Positions 1-54,382 of a DNA stretch of 64,000 bases are shown in pieces. Position 1 is the first letter of the stretch; each line of letters opens with the position of its first letter. Position numbers and translations under genes: made by a program. The DNA is from Spiroplasma endosymbiont of 'Nebria riversi' (GTDB lineage: Bacteria; Bacillota_I; Bacilli_A; Mycoplasmatales; Nriv7), in assembly GCF_018831625.1 (NCBI RefSeq), contig NZ_CP065193.1, positions 868,001-932,000 on the forward strand. The letters are read 5' to 3'. The notes beneath the pieces were generated by a model. That model was not told the origin of the DNA. It saw only the letters and a program-made list of their open reading frames with translations, and did not search any database.

Positions 1-806
1 TTTTTTGGATTTGAAAAATCTAAATATCAAAGTTTATTCGTATTATATTCCAGAATGAAAGCCGTTGTGCTTGAAATAATAGTAATTGCATTGTTTGCAT
101 TTTTACCCAAGTCAGTTCAAACAGGGTTATATGGATTTGAAAAATCTAAATATCAAAGTTTTTGAGTATTTTTTTCCATAATAAAAGTTATAGCACTAGA
201 AACATGACCATATCAAGGAGGATTCATAATATTTTTTCCTAAGTCAACCCATCTCCTGCTAACTGGCTTTGTTACATCCAAATAATAAAGCCCATTGGTA
301 TCTTTTTCTAAAATAATAAAAACTGTATTTGACATTTGAGCAGGACCAAAAGTTACTTTTTTACCTAAGTCAGTTCAAACAGGGTTATATGGATTTGAAA
401 AATCTAAATATCAAAGTTCATCAGTTTTAAATTCTTGAACAATAACAATTGTATTTAAAACTTTAATAGTTGACCCACTTTGTTTTCCTAAGTCAACCCA
501 TCTTTCGCTAGCCGGCTTTGTTACATCCAAATAATAAAGTTGTTGATTATTTGTGAAAACAATAATAATTGTATTTGATATTACTGTTGTTAAACCCCCG
601 AATGTTTTTTCTAGATCAGTTCAAATTGGTGTAATTTCAATTTTATTTTGATAACTATCAATTATTATTGGTTTATTTTTGCTTCTTTTGTATCTTTGTA
701 AATAATTAATTTCATTTTTTGTTAAAACTGGAGCATTTCCAACAAGCCCTGTCATTCCGCTTCCTGTTATTGTTATAGTTCCTAAGCCCCCTAATATTTT
801 TTTCAT
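1..806 (-). CDS. Secreted repeat (propeller-like) surface protein, 3' end beyond window
   Basis: Read with TGA as Trp, the frame is open from the ATG at 806 to the window edge. The protein starts with the leader MKKILGGLGTITITGSG and then GLVGNAP, which resembles a signal peptide without a lipobox cysteine. The body is built of units of about 40-45 residues that alternate LYYLDVTKP...RWVDLGK with LWYLDFSNPYNPVWTDLGK. Each unit starts with a hydrophobic strand such as TVFIILEKDTN, so a beta-propeller fold is plausible (inference). Upstream lies an AAGGA ribosome site about 11 bases before the ATG. The leader and 5' flank are shared with the genes at 27757, 31818 and 51659. No catalytic motif is visible; a surface or adhesion role is inferred. 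Confidence 0.6.
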
Positions 807-24027: not shown

Positions 24028-24411
24028 ATGAAAAAGTTAAAGAAAATATTAAGTATTAAATGATTTAAAAGCGTTTTAGGTTTTATGGATTTTTTTATTA
24101 TATTTCATACTGTTATGGTTGTAATTTGAGTGTTTTTAACAAGAATTAGAACTAATATAGATGGATTTTTTAAAGATTTTATATTATTTGATTTTCAAAA
24201 TGTATTTCTTAAAGTGTATTTTTGATTATTAATGATTTATTTGTTAATAATTGCTATTAAGTTATTTATTAGGGGTTATTACTTTAATAAAGTTTTTAGA
24301 AAGCATCAAACGCAAGATGTTAATTGTGAATGTCCAAAACATAATCATTATAAATTTTCTGATGCTTTTAAAGCGATAAAAAATAGTTTTAAGACGTGAT
24401 GAAATGCATAA
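24028..24411 (+). CDS. Plectrovirus 127-aa membrane protein
   Basis: MKKLKKILSIKWFKSVLGFM, two membrane spans (FFIIFHTVMVVIWVFL and VYFWLLMIYLLIIAIKLF), then a Cys/His-containing cytoplasmic part (CECPKHNHYKF) and SFKTWWNA. The ribosome site is AAAAGGAG. Positional counterpart of the decayed genes at 54400-55044. The end overlaps the ORF1 start by eight bases. Confidence 0.65.
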
Positions 24412-25998
24412 GATTATTTCTTGATTTATTATAATGTTTATTAGTTTGGTGCCATTAGGGGCTTTCTTTGATACAAAACAACCATCAAAACATAATATAG
24501 AACAATCCTTTATGAAGCGAGAAAAACGAGCAACTAATACTAGTCAATGTGGCAATAGTTGCGAATTAGAATTTTCTAATATTTATAATAGTTTTTTAAT
24601 TCCCAGCAAAATTGGCGGAAACCAGAGAAAGATAACGAGCAACCGTTACCTACGGAAATAAATAAAAATGATGGTGAGTATGATTATACTCAGTTTCAAG
24701 ATAAATTAGATTATTTGATGATACAACGCCGAGATTTTGATAAATTTAATTATAGTTATTTATATTGAGTTCCGATTTTTAATTTCTTTGATGATAATTT
24801 TAAATATATGAGTGAAATTTCAATTAAATTAAATGGTTTTAAACAAAATAGTAAATTTAGTTTAAGTCGCAAAAATTCATATCCGCCTGGTTTCATTGAA
24901 AAAGTTATTTTTAGAAAACTTTCCTTTTCTATTTTTGGTGATGTTATTACTATAAAAACTGAGCACGGTAGTATTGTGGGCAATAATGAGTTTTTAGAAA
25001 ATGGTAAATCACTTTGAAAATCTGGCTCGCGAACAAGTTTTGGAGAAGATTTTATTAATACCTTTTTTGGACAAGTTAATTATTATGATAATACCTTCCA
25101 TTTTTTACGATATGATGACAAATTAAAAGTTGATTTTAAAGATTTTGTGCTTTATTATCAAAAAGATTTAACTATTAGTTTTATTAATGAATTATTTAAC
25201 AAAATTTATAAAGTTTTAGGTGAGTTTTTTGTATAATTCTTTTATGCGAGTTTTGATATGGATGCTTCTACTTATGTAGAATTAGATTACAAAGGGACGC
25301 AACAAATTCCTAAAAATGTTTTACAAACGGGCTTTTTCTATCGCTCCTTAATTACTTTTTATCCTAAACAATATTTAATTAATTTTGATTCAACAATAGA
25401 AAATAGTAAGAATATGATTTTTCGTTCGTATTTTTTTGTGAAAGATAAACAAATTGCTAATGATTTTAAAACTGGTAAAAGTTCTTATCAAATAGATTTT
25501 AATGTGTTAAAAGCATATGATAACCAATTATGAAATGCTACTAGTAATAAACTGCATTTTTACAACGCCAAAGTTGATGTGATGTATGGAATTAATATTT
25601 TTGCGCTAACTTTTCCGCTATATAAAAAACAAAGTGAAAGCACTGAATATCATTATTCTTTATAAGATTTTAATATTTTGAATTCAACAGCTTTTATTGG
25701 TGGCGGAATAAGTGGCAATATGGATGACTTAATTCCGGCGCCCAACTGTTCTTATTGAGGTTTATTTAGTGCGATATCTTGTGGTATTCAACACGCCTCT
25801 GTTAGTGTGCTAAATTGATTACTTGGTCTTTCTGGAATTAATCTTTTAATTCGCCCTATTGCTGACATTGCTAAAACAACGATTAATTTTACTAAAACTG
25901 CCTTTCCGGTGTTTGAAGTCATTCCGGCATTTCAGATGTTATTTGAATTTGTAGTGCCGTTAGCAATCTTATTAATGATATTAAAAAAGTTCTCTTAA
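24404..25998 (+). pseudogene. Plectrovirus ORF1 (attachment-type protein), deletion plus two stops
   Basis: Starts MHKIISWFIIMFISLVPLGA (signal peptide), then NIEQSFMKREKRATN, a basic cleavage-like site, then the N-terminal domain begins (LEFSNIYNSFLIPSKIGG). A deletion near 24620 removes most of that domain and shifts the frame. The middle domain continues (EKDNEQPLPTEI, QFQDKLDYLMIQRRDFDKF, KNMIFRSYFFVKDKQIAN). Stops at 25234 (CAA to TAA) and 25663 (TAC to TAA) follow. The C-terminal membrane anchor remains (FEFVVPLAILLMILKKFS). The layout of signal peptide, external domains and C-terminal anchor is that of a pIII-like adsorption protein (inference from architecture). Confidence 0.75.
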
Positions 25999-26051: not shown

Positions 26052-26465
26052 ATGTGAAAATTTTTATCAGCTTTAAATTTAGTATGTATAATGTTTATTT
26101 CTGGGTGTAATAAAAATAGCAATGATTTAAAAAAATATGATTTAGAATTTTCTAATATTTATAATAGTTTTTTAATTCCCAGCAAAATTGGCGGTGGGGC
26201 TAAAATTAAATTTCAAGATAACATCGATTTACCACTTGAAATTAAAAAAACTCGCATTTTTAGTTTATCTCTTGGTAATAAAAATAAAGATTGAATTAAT
26301 TTTTATAAAAATAATGGTGTTAAAAAAACTTACGATGATTTTAGTTATTTAGATTTAGATTTTGGTTATGAGATTTCTGAGATAATTAATGTTAAGATAA
26401 CATTTACTAAATCAATAGGATTATCTTATAGTATAACTTCCTTCTCTGCCAAGATGCCTCATTAA
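26052..26465 (+). CDS. Phage-encoded lipoprotein resembling the ORF1 N-domain
   Basis: 137 residues. MWKFLSALNLVCIMFISGCN has the lipobox ISGC. The mature start, YDLEFSNIYNSFLIPSKIGG, is the same as the surviving start of the ORF1 N-domain in this prophage. It ends SITSFSAKMPH, like the domain end ITSFSAEMP in P3 ORF1. So the lipoprotein is a membrane-anchored copy of the attachment domain. AAAGGAGG ribosome site; promoter-like TATAAT at about 26019 (ATAATATAATTCC). It may block superinfection by occupying the receptor or binding virions (inference). Confidence 0.7.
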
Positions 26466-27756: not shown

Positions 27757-29733
27757 TTATACTATGGTAGTAACTGCATTTGTTCTTACTGGCCCTTCTA
27801 TTTCTGATGAAAAAAATGCTTCACCATTAAATGTTATTTTATCATTGTTTTTATCTATAGTAATTTCACTTGGTAATACACCATGATTTTGTAAAATTTG
27901 CATTACTTCTGTAATTGGTAATGTAACTATTTGTTCTTTATTACTATCATCAATTATTTTAGAAGTAATTGTTCCCATAATTTTTTGCTTTAAATTTAAT
28001 ATAATTTCAGATTTAACTATTCTTACTGAATAATTAATTTTTAATTTTTCGTTGGGATTAAGTTCAAATTTATCAGCGGATTCCTTAAAAATACTTAAAA
28101 TCATTTCTTGTTCTTGCTTATTTGTGTTTGATAAATCAAATTCATTTGATAATACATTAATAATTTCAGAATTTTTATTATTTATATTTGTAAAATCTGT
28201 TAATTTCATTTCATCATCAGAATTTATGCTTCAACCATTTAATTTATTTTCTTGTTTTGTTTTAGTTAATCCTGTTGTAATTTGAAATACTAATTTTGAT
28301 TTTGAATTATATTCACAAGCAGGTACATTAAATGATCTTATATCCGGAGTTTTATTGGTAATTTCTCTATCAGAACATATATTTTTAGGAACATTAGATC
28401 ATAAAAATGAATTTTCTTTTTTTGTTATTTCATTATTTGAAAAATTTAAATTATTAATATCAATATAATTTATTTCTTTAAATTTTACATTAGAATTTTT
28501 GTTAGCGTCTTTATATTTAAAGAAAATTGCTTTCTTAATTAATTCGCTTAAATCAATAGAACTAGCTTCATCTTTATTTTTAATTTTATAATTAACAGTA
28601 ACTTCACCAAAATATTTACCATTATCTTTTGCTTTAATTGTAGCCGATGTATCTGTTTTATTAATAATTTCTAATTGTGATATATCTAAATCAGGATTTA
28701 AATAATTTAATTCATTTAAAATAATTTCATCATTAATAATGTTATTAACCCTTAAATTATTTATTTGAATAATAATATTTAAAAGCATTTTAGTTTTAGT
28801 TATCGCAAATACATTACCACTTTTTTGTTCAATTATAATAGAAATAACTGTTTCATTTATTCCATTAATTTTAATTAAATTTGATGAAGGTCTTGATTTA
28901 AAATATAATCCATCATCTGTTGCAAAATAAGTAGCGCCTGCAACTGTAGAAGCAACGTTTCTGTCATGGATTGCAATATCATTAACTTGACCTTTTATTT
29001 CGATAATTTCTATAGCATCATAATTGTTTGGTTTATCTTCAATCAAATAAACTTTTTTATTTGCAGATATTGCGTAAGCTTCTCCTGTTGATTGAGAAAT
29101 TATAATGCGATTAACCTTGTTATTTATTCCATTAATTTTAATTAAGTTTGATGAAGGTCTTGATTTAAAATATAATCCATCATCTGTTGCAAAATAAGTA
29201 GCACCGGCAACTGTAGACTTAATATTTCTGTCATGGATTGCAATATCATTAACTTGACCTTTTATTTCGATAATTTCTATAGCATCATAATTGTTTGGTT
29301 TATCTTCAATCAAATAAACTTTTTTATTTGCAGATATTGCGTAAGCTTCTCCTGTTGATTGAGAAATTATAATGCGATTAACCTTGTTATTTATTCCATT
29401 AATTTTAATTAAGTTTGATGAAGGTCTTGATTTAAAATATAATCCATCATCTGTTGCAAAATAAGTAGCACCGGCAACTGTAGAAGCAACGTTTCTGTCA
29501 TGGATTGCAATATCATTAACTTGACCTTTTATTTCGCTAATTTCTATAGCATCATAATTGTTTGGTTTATCTTCAATCAAATAAACTTTTTTATCTAAAT
29601 TTTTTAAATTATTTGTTTTTAAATAATTGATTTCACTTTTTGCTGAAGTTGGAGCGTTTCCGATGATTCCCGACATTCCGCTTCCTGCTATTGTTATAGT
29701 TCCTAAGATTCCTAGTAATTTTTTTATTAACAT
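27757..29733 (-). CDS. Secreted surface protein with three 89-residue tandem repeats
   Basis: 658 residues with TGA as Trp. Leader LIKKLLGILGTITIAGSGMS then GIIGNAP (no lipobox Cys). Residues about 45-330 are three near-identical repeats with VYLIEDKPNNYDAIEI, GQVNDIAIHDRN, GATYFATDDGLYFKSRPSSN and RIIISQSTGEAYAIS, a pattern of short strands typical of propeller or kelch-like folds. The C-terminal part has duplicated alpha/beta modules (NLRVNNIINDEIILNELNYL; LTDFTNINNKNSEIINVLS). In most paralogues the initiator is the ATG that reads ATA here, so the ATG six bases upstream (29733) is used. A surface antigen or adhesin by inference. Confidence 0.7.
28862..29660 (-). repeat. Three tandem 267-bp coding repeats
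   Basis: Equivalent points (TCCATTAATTTTAATTAA) recur at about 28862, 29129 and 29396, a spacing of exactly 267 bases (89 codons). Copies differ at very few bases, such as ACTGTAGACTTAATATT versus ACTGTAGAAGCAACGTT, so the array is recently expanded and could gain or lose units by recombination. Confidence 0.85.
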
Positions 29734-29830
29734 CAAATTCCTTTCATAAATTTTATTAATCAGTAAAAATTTATCGAATAATCAACATCCTTTCTCCAAA
29801 AACTAATCTGCAATTTCTTTATCCTGGAAT
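29734..29830 (-). promoter_or_regulatory. Conserved 5' region of the surface-protein family
   Basis: It contains GAAAGGAATTTGATG at the start codon, AAATTTTTACTGATT, GAAAGGATGTTGATTATTCG and CCAGGATAAAG. The same string of blocks occurs before 806, 32190 and partly before 51659. A promoter and leader are likely within it. Confidence 0.45.
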
Positions 29831-40553: not shown

Positions 40554-40604
40554 TGTGAAAATTTTTATAAGCTTTAAATTTATTATGTGTAATATAGTTT
40601 TTTT
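40554..40604 (+). pseudogene. Relic start of the usual phage lipoprotein
   Basis: MWKFL, TAA, ALNLLCVI: the leader seen intact at 26052. It has the AAAGGAG ribosome site and upstream TATAAT of the P1 and P2 genes but stops at once. The functional lipoprotein starts 67 bases later with its own ribosome site. Confidence 0.7.
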
Positions 40605-40620
40605 GAAAGGAGAAGTTTTG

Positions 40621-41037
40621 ATGTATAAAAAATTTTTAATTGCGTTAAGTTTAGCAAATATAATGTTAGTTTCTGCGTGTAATTCTACTAATAGTAAAAT
40701 TGAAAAAAAATATAATTTGGAGTTTGCCGAGATTTTAAATAGTTCTTTTGTTAATACAAGTGTTAGTAACTATTTAACGGGTTGATTACAAATTAATAGT
40801 GTTAAAAATCAATTACCCTCTGATACTGGATATTCTGATTTCTATATTGTTTATAACAATGGTAATGGTAATATTATTTCTAGTGTTTTTGATTTTTATA
40901 AAAAAAATGGATTTTTAAAAAATAAAACTTATAGTATTGATAAAATCGTTAATGTTAAAATAACAATTGCTAGTATTCCTGGTTCTAATTCAGGTAATTT
41001 TTGAATAACTTCATTTTCGATGGAAATGCCTCATTAA
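40621..41037 (+). CDS. Phage-encoded lipoprotein nearly identical to the ORF1 N-domain
   Basis: 138 residues. MYKKFLIALSLANIMLVSAC has lipobox VSAC. From YNLEFAEILNSSFVNTSVSN to ITSFSMEMPH it is almost the same as ORF1 residues encoded at 38817-39130; I count about nine base differences in some 315. So the lipoprotein and the attachment-protein domain of this phage are a matched pair. Strong AAAGGAGAAG ribosome site. A membrane-anchored decoy or receptor blocker for superinfection exclusion is a reasonable hypothesis, not shown. Confidence 0.75.
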
Positions 41038-41111: not shown

Positions 41112-42186
41112 ATGAAATATATTATTTCTCAAGCCGATTTAAAAGCAAAAGCACAAAGTTGATTAAGTGCTAATTGTCGTAATCCTTATTACTATAAAAC
41201 TAAAAAACGCATTACTGCCTATTTAAATTTATGTACTTATTTCTATATTGAAGAAATTACTTTAACAAAACTTATTAAAAAATATTTTAAGAATGCAACG
41301 AAAACCTTTTATCGTTGGGCAGAAAAAATTATGACCGCTTATTATTCTGACAATTTAGATTTGTTATTGTTTAAAACCACAAAACCACAAAACCTTAATT
41401 ATCAATATAGTTTAAATTCTCGCGAAAAAGTATGTGATTTATATTTTGATTACAAAAATCTTCAAGCTGGCGGAATGTGGTCTTTATTTAATAATTTAAA
41501 AATCGGTTCTCACGATATTAAAAATTCAGAAATTCCTAAAAATATCAAAACTTTTTATCGTTGAATTAAATCTGACCCTCGTTGAAAAGAATTAAAACAG
41601 CAAATCAAACAAACTAAACGCCATTTTAAGCGTTATGAAGTATTCTGATATCGGTCTTTTACAAATGGATGCCAAAATCATTACTACATCAAATTTTCCG
41701 GTTGATAAAAAATATTACATTTATGATTTCATTGACGAAATGACACGCATAGTATTTGGTTATGTTTATTATAGTTTAGGAACTAACAATGCTCTTAATG
41801 CCATGCAAATAGCAATGAAAGATTTTGGCGAACTTGGCATAACCATTAAACGCCTTCGTACTGACGACGCTCCTGAATTTACTACTACTAACTGAAGTAA
41901 TAAAAAATCTTACAAAGTAAAAGAAAGGTCTTTTACAACCTTTCTTTCAAGGAACGGAATTGTTCACGAAACCACACCGATTCGTTCGCCACAAAGTAAC
42001 GGTAAAATCGAGCGGTTTCATCAACATTATACCAAATTATTTTATTCCAAGGATAAAAAATTAAATCAAAATGAACTTCAACATTATTTAAACAAATATT
42101 ATTACTTTTATAATTTTGAACGCCATCATTCATCTTTAAACAGTAAAACGCCTTTTCAAAAATTGCAAAAATTTTTAACAAAGTAG
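41112..42186 (+). pseudogene. Plectrovirus transposase with single frameshift
   Basis: MKYIISQADLKAKAQSWLSA to RHFKRYEVF is open, then one added base near 41645 shifts the frame. The DDE core continues: LQMDAKIIT, RLRTDDAPEF (Asn to Asp change) and NGKIERFHQHY, ending FQKLQKFLTK. The N-terminus lacks three codons relative to P1. Confidence 0.8.
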
Positions 42187-42288: not shown

Positions 42289-42909
42289 TTAATTATTTAC
42301 AATTTTAGCAAAATCTATTTCTAAAACAGTTGTTAAGTGTCTATTATTAGTTCCGGCACTATAAAGATAACTATAAACATAAATATTTAATTTTAATTCT
42401 TTATTATTTTCAATTCATAACCCTATTTCAATATCACAATCAACATCATATGAAGCAAATCAATATTGATTTGCTTTAACTAAAGTTCTTCAATATGCTT
42501 TATCACTATTATTGTTATGATTTATATCGATATTATTTAAATTAATTTTAATATCTCTAAATTTATCTTTCCCTACATTACCAAAAGTTTCTGGTGAATT
42601 TTCTTCTCCATAAGTATTAATTATAATGTAAAGATATTTTTCTATAAATGAATTTCAATCAGAAGCATATTTAGTAAAATCTACTATATTTAATGTTTTC
42701 TTATCATTAAACTTTAAAGTATAACTTCAACTAGTATCTCCAGTTCTACTATAATAATAATCATATTTTACGATTATATCATTATTAGCTTCTACTAAAT
42801 AAGGATTTGTTGCTCGTTTTTCTCGTTTCATAAAAGATTGTTCTATTTTTCTTGGGGCATTGTCAACAATTCCTGTCGTTCCACGCCCCGCTATTGTTAT
42901 TGTTCCTAA
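42289..42909 (-). pseudogene. Secreted surface protein with phage-like basic linker, start removed by IS3
   Basis: About 206 residues remain. It starts in the family leader (LGTITIAGRGTTGIVDNAP); the first codons are lost to the IS3 fragment at 42911. It then reads IEQSFMKREKRATNPYLVEA, the same linker as phage ORF1 at 24404 (IEQSFMKREKRATN). The body is Tyr/Trp-rich: VKYDYYYSRTGDTSWSYTLK, YASDWNSFIEKYLYIIINTY, FRDIKINLNNIDIN and LWIENNKELKLNIYVYSYLY. It ends EIDFAKIVNN. The frame is open throughout. Probable secreted, proteolytically matured surface protein before disruption. Confidence 0.65.
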
Positions 42910-42910
42910 G

Positions 42911-43483
42911 TGGATGGGTTACAATAAGTTGGACCATATTTATGTGGACTTTCAAATAAAATAAAATCATTGATGAAATTTTAAAAGTGCTTAAAATTTC
43001 ATCAATGATTTTATTTTTGAACTCATTACCACGATCAGTATGAAATAAAGTTATTTTATTTAATGGTCGTGTTATTTTATGAAAAGCTTGTTGAACTAGT
43101 TTAGCGGTTTTGTTTGGTCTGGCGCTATAGCCAATTATTTCTCGATGAAACATGGTATGGCAACCCTTTTTTGGACACTTTTTATGTAGACTGTCATTTT
43201 CTAAATTCAACAGGCGTTAAATAATTTAAACTGCCATGTGCTCTAAGATTATTGTATCAATTAACAAAATCAAATAATTCGCATTTTAATTGTGTTAAAT
43301 TTTCAAATTTTTTACCCTTGATAAATTCCGTTTTAAAAGTTTTGTAAGTTGTTTCAGCCACAGCATTGTCATAAGGACAACCCTTCGCACTCAATGATCT
43401 TTTAATTTTAAAAGTGCTTAAAATTTCATCAATGATTTTATTTTTGAACTCATTACCACGATCAGTATGAAATAAATTTATTT
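42911..43483 (-). mobile_element. Two IS3 (D) fragments, one with fold-back junction
   Basis: 42911-42966 is the outer end in plus orientation; it turns back on itself at AAAATCATTGATGAAATTTT/AAAATTTCATCAATGATTTT (42962-43013) into minus-strand OrfB sequence (FHTDRGNEF to GYSARPNKT). At 43155 a second fragment begins with the right end of D (minus) and OrfB C-terminus (43257-43493: FHTDRGNEF, KGCPYDNAVAETTYKTFK). It is cut by element B4. Confidence 0.75.
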
Positions 43484-53866: not shown

Positions 53867-54382
53867 TTAATTGTTGTCTTTTTTTGTATTAAATTTTTTA
53901 ATATGAAATTTGTTTGAACCGGGATAACTATATTCTTGTATTGTTATTTTTACATCTTTAATTTTTTTAGCAGTATAAAAATATTCAATATTTGTTTTTT
54001 GAAAATCTTTATCAAAAAATTCTCTTTCTTCTGGGGTGCTGTTTTCTTTTTTATAATTATAAATTTCTTTAATTTCTTTAAATACCGTTTCATTGGTAAA
54101 GACAGCAAACCCTCTGGTATTTTCTCCATAATTTTTTATTTCCAAAGGTAATTGCTCTTTTACTGAGTCAATATTAATATATACTGGGTCATCGCCTTTT
54201 TTATACAATGATTGTAAATAACTGTTATTTATTTCTGAAAATTTTAAGTCATATTTTTTATATTGAGTTTCTCTTTTATTTCTAACTGGTTGCACTGCCG
54301 TTTTCTCGTTGTTAATGTTTTGAGGAATGGTAAAAATGTTATTGAAACTAATAATTAATACGGTAAATATTTTCATAAACAT
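53867..54382 (-). CDS. Plectrovirus ORF1, signal peptide and N-domain only
   Basis: 171 residues from the ATG at 54382 (AAGGAG 8 bases upstream). MFMKIFTVLIISFNNIFTIP signal peptide, then a basic linker (QPVRNKRETQYKK), then the N-domain: YDLKFSEINNSYLQSLYKKG, PVYINIDSVKEQLPLEIKNY and KDVKITIQEYSYPGSNKFHI, ending TKKDNN. Compared with P3 ORF1, the middle domain and C-terminal anchor are lost, so a soluble secreted domain would be made. No lipobox Cys, so it is not the lipoprotein paralogue. The N-domain sequence differs from P1, P2 and P3, showing diversification. Confidence 0.65.
   Translation of the reverse strand: MFMKIFTVLIISFNNIFTIPQNINNEKTAVQPVRNKRETQYKKYDLKFSEINNSYLQSLYKKGDDPVYINIDSVKEQLPLEIKNYGENTRGFAVFTNETVFKEIKEIYNYKKENSTPEEREFFDKDFQKTNIEYFYTAKKIKDVKITIQEYSYPGSNKFHIKKFNTKKDNN

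Follow-up and report, generated by a model that had tools for sequence, protein, structure and literature searches.

A recurrent R-x-K-R motif and an exchangeable cargo gene in the plectroviruses of Spiroplasma

Why should the attachment-type protein of a phage and another exported protein encoded nearby carry the same 14-residue linker? The question is raised by a stretch of 64,000 nucleotides (the window; positions 868,001 to 932,000 of contig NZ_CP065193.1) from the Spiroplasma endosymbiont of 'Nebria riversi', in which the linker IEQSFMKREKRATN, translated like all reading frames here with genetic code 4, is encoded twice: at 24497-24538 on the forward strand, within open reading frame 1 (ORF1) of a plectrovirus, a rod-shaped phage, and at 42805-42846 on the reverse strand, within the gene spanning 42289-42918 (gene 42289). 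The genome to which the window belongs (G000) measures 1.44 Mb and was compared with four more genomes of the genus; a family-level search yielded no further genomes, and direct phage and IMG/VR searches with the ORF1 linker, the cargo and the leader as queries gave no match, so that the comparison was restricted to these five. We consider it probable that three statements hold together, namely that gene 42289 is decayed plectrovirus cargo, that its linker comes from ORF1, and that the R-x-K-R motif inside the linker marks a cut by which exported proteins other than lipoproteins are freed. The exact sharing of 14 residues is an ordinary product of recombination; the real interest of the locus is a conserved processing-like site in bacteria with no detectable signal peptidase I, together with the slot in which plectroviruses keep their cargo.

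Gene 42289 and the plectrovirus cargo slot

Gene 42289 is a remnant read from the reverse strand, in which a truncated leader and the ORF1-type linker are followed by a body running from PYLVEANND to FAKIVNN. It has no start: the leader is kept from LGTITIAG on, and a fragment of an insertion sequence-type transposase with an rve domain (42785-43210, reverse strand) adjoins the point of loss, where MKKLLG.. would be expected. An intact version (MKKLLGIIGTITIAGSGMTGIVGNAPRKIEQSFMKREKRATSPYLVE.., 213 residues) is present in genomes G002 and G004, the latter of which also holds L042/L046, an interrupted and more remote relative whose linker is the same. Decay is seen again in G001, where the copy is broken, and in G000 itself, where two further copies have neither leader nor linker. 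The protein body had no Pfam match above cut-off and no PHROG match, and profile comparison found no relation to the variable domain of ORF1; its predicted structure, with a mean predicted local distance difference test score (pLDDT) of 53, does not allow a fold search to be interpreted. No lipobox Cys was found at the end of the signal peptide in either the 42289-type cargo or ORF1.

The intact gene of G002 reveals where this family belongs. It is part of a complete unit of ~9.5 kb (L092) made of small left-end genes, rolling-circle Rep-like, coat-like and ATPase-like genes, ORF1, a lipoprotein gene and a transposase gene, and it lies on the opposite strand, behind the transposase and before the next phage copy. 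The gene order is that of the Plectroviridae, with ORF2/ATPase-like and ORF3 transposase recognised by similarity and ORF1 by position, and in several independent copies the cargo gene is enclosed by phage genes belonging to a single unit. In this line, the region 818-864 kb of G002 (L092, L262, L263) holds five plectrovirus units in tandem, with cargo of 213, 417, 417 and 123 residues in one and the same slot of copies 1, 2, 3 and 5, the slot of copy 4 being empty. Orientation was examined in 60 regions, drawn from the five genomes, that surround leader-family genes; these genes were convergent with the phage genes in each of the 37 non-redundant cases with phage genes within downstream reach (sign-test p ~7e-12). 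Moreover, behind ORF1 of SVGII3, a published phage isolate, lies a member of the leader family that is annotated as 'P89 pseudogene'. Gene 42289 is thus a 5'-truncated, decayed plectrovirus cargo gene and not a host gene, and the description of its product as a host surface protein in an earlier note, made from the sequence alone, has to be abandoned, since the family sits in a phage slot of fixed orientation that holds differing cargo, or none, along the array.

That note had also proposed that a host surface-protein gene and a phage exchanged fragments, a view that the 42-base stretch common to both genes would accommodate. Leader genes occur as well on Spiroplasma plasmids, in S. poulsonii and in a S. 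phoeniceum assembly, and 11 of 48 leaders have no phage gene within downstream reach, so some of them may be resident. The orthologs of gene 42289 are, however, found inside phage units or beside phage genes in several genomes, and every case that could be oriented is convergent with the phage operon; exchange with a host gene is largely refuted for gene 42289, and we give it next to no weight. The occurrence on plasmids and in these other spiroplasmas indicates a common export leader that phages use and that is not theirs alone.

The tandem array of G002 also constitutes a natural record of cargo exchange. A separate observation is that the 417-residue phage cargo of G002 (L044/L135) and a protein encoded on the sNten plasmid pSNTEN_2 (L195) begin their bodies alike behind R-x-K-R (DFYxKEQIEFFNN.FFYKFNI.Y), a likeness which suggests that phages and plasmids exchange cargo bodies.

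A linker copied from ORF1

The two linker-coding stretches of the window agree at 39 of 42 bases. With both coding sites located and 3 bases differing, the initial observation that the same residues occur in ORF1 and in the 42289 protein, in nearly identical codons, was correct, and the span to which it referred, 42700-42909, corresponds to the linker plus the leader remnant. The ORF1 concerned is itself damaged and split into several frames: its N-terminal part (24404-24661, forward strand) comprises signal peptide, linker and the start of the variable domain before the frame breaks after 85 residues.

Comparison with 31 distinct ORF1 stretches sets the limits of what is shared. A block of 45 bp (from ATAGAACAAT to CCT), which contains the linker of gene 42289, is identical to the nearest ORF1 copies at 40-42 of 45 positions (about 90%), and its flanks match ORF1 at chance level (~7/27 for the 27 bases before it, ~6/18 for the 18 after it). 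Chance similarity between the linkers was considered and is ruled out by this difference between core and flanks. The codons of the motif tell the same origin: R-x-K-R is written CGA-x-AAA-CGA in 30 of the 31 ORF1 stretches, and the hybrid, 42289-type genes also use CGA..CGA, a combination seen in none of 47 ordinary leaders, whose Arg codons are mostly AGA..AGA or AGA..CGA. The linker of the 42289-type family is copied from ORF1, this being the simplest direction of transfer because the block is present in one cargo family only. The different codons suggest, on the other hand, that ordinary leaders and ORF1 reached the motif independently. As to how widely the linker is distributed, the ORF1 version was found in all five genomes, with 12-20 matches in each, and its full 14-residue form among cargo is limited to this one family.

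The R-x-K-R motif and the lipid anchor

Searching with a 26-residue profile restricted to the signal peptide yielded 64 non-redundant leader proteins, of which 48 carry R-x-K-R at residues 25-75, against 1.7% expected from shuffled linkers and 1 of 245 downstream segments of the same proteins. Lys occupies the P2 position in 48/48, whereas N, Q, S, E, V and others all occur in the middle. The site lies 35-54 residues from the start, the residues behind it are mostly polar or small, and accepting K as well as R at the first position brings in just one more case. The motif recurs in phage ORF1 of type A, whose signal peptide is unrelated to the leaders (27/27), and in ORF1 of type B, which has a third unrelated signal peptide (MFMKIFTVLIISFNNIF..; 12/13) and is represented in the window by an N-terminus with the site VRNKR (53867-54382, reverse strand). 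In each of the three groups the pattern, which is of the type R-X-K/R-R, has a conserved position behind the signal peptide and ahead of the body.

Lipidated proteins behave otherwise. Leader-family members with a lipobox have no R-x-K-R, and neither do the lipoproteins encoded behind ORF1 (0/23 of type A and 0/13 of type B, 0/36 in all; ORF1 and lipoprotein copies are related, so that these motif counts are descriptive and not independent trials). The lipoprotein of the window (26052-26465, forward strand; lipobox ISGC) repeats in its body the variable domain of the ORF1 of its own phage, and so do its counterparts elsewhere: in 12 phages of type A (L092, L093, L094, L096, L130, L132, L133, L134, L136, L142, L144, L154) the variable domain of ORF1 is 88-97% identical to that of the phage's own lipoprotein, which ranks first in 12/12, with scores of 162-213 bits for cognate pairs and medians of 20-37 bits for non-cognate ones. 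Two pairs of type B show the same cognate behaviour, and between phages both variable domains and their lipoprotein twins differ strongly. The domain is thus presented in both a lipidated and a non-lipidated version, with R-x-K-R confined to the latter. Given this identity, the lipoprotein twin is a candidate superinfection-exclusion decoy, a binding domain that would be displayed by the host cell and block the same phage; no literature on SpV1 superinfection was found among openly accessible papers. The predicted structure of the lipoprotein (pLDDT 69) gave a best PDB match of Z 4.4, not above background.

The export machinery of these bacteria provides the context for such a division. Lipoprotein signal peptidase (LspA) is encoded in 5/5 genomes, and signal peptidase I was found in none of the five with TIGR02227 (sigpep_I_bact) at E<=10, a profile that recognised 14/14 control genomes, nor with PF10502 (0/5). 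In the same way, signal peptidase II and no signal peptidase I has been reported for S. mirum (PMC9666726), and a counterpart of the S24-S26 peptidase of phytoplasmas is missing from S. citri, whose exported proteins are nevertheless processed, apparently not as in phytoplasmas (PMC4392738). Lipoproteins would need no R-x-K-R because the lipoprotein signal peptidase handles them.

Behind their transposase and on the opposite strand, the phages keep an interchangeable gene whose exported product is headed by a stock leader (MKKLLGILGTITIAGSG..). Most stock leaders end in R-x-K-R 35-54 residues in, a site that in the 42289 family has been replaced by the 45-bp piece of the ORF1 linker. According to the mechanism that we propose, the uncleaved signal peptide would remain as an N-terminal membrane anchor after Sec export, and a protease cutting after R-x-K-R would release the cargo proteins outside. 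In ORF1 the site is followed immediately by the N-terminal variable domain, which the same cut would free; the enzyme involved could be an unrecognised kind of spiroplasma protease or a protease of the insect. The earlier note had left the choice between an exchange of fragments and a common maturation route. Exchange did occur, for this one family and with a cargo gene instead of a host gene as partner, and the common route is strongly suggested as well: three unrelated leaders have R-x-K-R, and the lipidated twins do not.

Some observations count against this mechanism. Cleavage at R-x-K-R is something we infer from the pattern of residues; about one quarter of the leaders have no exact motif, and the leader family is homologous, so that its 48 cases are not independent. 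The motif is absent from an adhesin on the sHy plasmid and from ORF1 of five characterised plectroviruses, and is therefore not required for plectrovirus attachment in general. In the search for a protease, which covered the few families represented by Peptidase_S8 (subtilisin/kexin) and Trypsin_2, both gave 0/5 genomes, with Peptidase_S8 detected in 7/14 controls. Moreover, in S. citri a fusion with the ScARP3d signal peptide ran at a size fitting signal-peptide removal (PMC4392738), for which reason another route of signal cleavage probably exists and R-x-K-R need not be the sole one. A literature search on R-X-K-R in Spiroplasma, again within openly accessible papers, found none.

The motif could also act without being cut, as a basic patch for membrane association, translocation or folding, the shared linker then being simply a result of intra-phage recombination. 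Clusters of basic residues close to a signal anchor can exert an effect through their charge, and a transfer from ORF1 to cargo requires no functional reason. Charge alone would hardly demand the strict spacing and identity observed, with Lys at P2 in every leader and a single case gained by allowing K or R; nor would it explain why lipoproteins of the same membrane go without the motif, or why ORF1 and the leaders arrived at it with independent codons. We regard this explanation as quite improbable.

If the site is cut, the next issue is by whom. R-X-K/R-R is the textbook consensus of furin and kexin, and spiroplasmas live in arthropods, where a furin-like protease could cut R-x-K-R. Activation or release of the cargo would then have to await the insect, and the trimming of ORF1 would be either incidental or of use for infection in the haemolymph. 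The invariant Lys, the mostly polar or small residues behind the site and the lack of a bacterial S8 or trypsin-type protease in the five genomes all fit this possibility. The target of ORF1, however, is the spiroplasma cell, and the site is kept in two ORF1 types that are unrelated to each other; phages infecting in culture would meet no host furin, and the tie to a missing lipid anchor, seen in the 36 twins, points to a problem of bacterial export. An insect enzyme is in our view unlikely, and the presence of the site in phage ORF1 favours an enzyme of the spiroplasma. A more specific proposal is that spiroplasmas, having no signal peptidase I, free their exported non-lipoproteins by a dedicated R-x-K-R cut, the work of a protease so far unrecognised among bacteria, and that phages share this signal for ORF1 and for a standard cargo slot shipping exported effectors between symbionts; we put it forward tentatively, as less likely than not.

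Such a site would bear on how exported proteins are released in mollicutes that have no signal peptidase I, including the effectors by which male-killing and protective spiroplasmas act on insects. With a fixed four-residue site present in the non-lipidated and absent from the lipidated versions of the same domains, mature N-termini become predictable, the start expected for type A ORF1 being ATNPSQCG. A survey of Spiroplasma toxins that used a general prophage finder came to the conclusion that toxin distribution is not explained by phages (PMC10232968); short units of single-stranded DNA phages, with one exported-protein gene each, may escape finders of this kind.

Known systems and neighbouring elements of the window

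Among the Plectroviridae, Vespertiliovirus SpV1-C74 and SkV1, Suturavirus SVTS2 and Virgulavirus SVGII3 likewise have an ATPase-like ORF2, small ORFs and ORF1 followed by a transposase. The transposase of the phages described here is 52-55% identical to ORF3 of C74 and SkV1, their ORF2-like protein is ~28-33% identical, and SVGII3 resembles them further in its leader-family gene behind ORF1. The records of SpV1-C74 and SkV1 mark repeats inside and behind ORF1, at positions corresponding to ORF1 and its lipoprotein twin. What sets the present phages apart is the joint presence of a rolling-circle Rep-like gene and a transposase, the R-x-K-R of ORF1, a full lipoprotein twin of the variable domain and the opposite-strand cargo slot.

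Beyond this family, proprotein sites of the furin/kexin type share the residue pattern and its place, behind the signal peptide and ahead of the functional domain, but here it occurs in bacterial and phage proteins, in genomes where no kexin-type protease was detected. Phage morons and lysogenic conversion genes are equally optional and exchangeable, have their own orientation and encode exported products; they differ in that unrelated bodies here share a stock leader and a processing-like site, in a filamentous-type single-stranded DNA phage. The superinfection-exclusion lipoproteins of the T5 Llp type are also small phage lipoproteins, likely displayed, as here, on the host cell, whereas the body of the Spiroplasma proteins is a near copy of the variable domain of ORF1 of the same phage (88-97% in all 12 pairs), an identity that makes a blocking role a candidate function.

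Other features of the window belong to the same elements. Downstream of the damaged ORF1 and its lipoprotein follows the phage transposase (26484-27641, forward strand; rve domain), a close relative of which has the identity to ORF3 of SpV1-C74 and SkV1 given above, and then, in the same slot, another leader-family cargo gene (27757-29799, reverse strand) with a leader of the MKKLLGILGTITIAG type, a repeat body and a linker without R-x-K-R. A second phage remnant, to which gene 42289 is adjacent, retains a lipoprotein (40555-41037, forward strand) and a transposase in two frames (41112-42186, forward strand) that is convergent with the cargo gene. A further leader-family gene with the site LQRYKR (1-806, reverse strand) runs off the window. 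The variable domain of the type B ORF1 at 53867-54382 recalls the style of type A (KYDLKFSEINNSY), which suggests, as far as the residues go, domain swapping between phages of both types. Finally, many type B cargo proteins (L054, L171-L183) bear beta-propeller/PQQ-like repeats behind a KRQKRSNN site, the Pfam PQQ_2 assignment coming from the one protein scanned.
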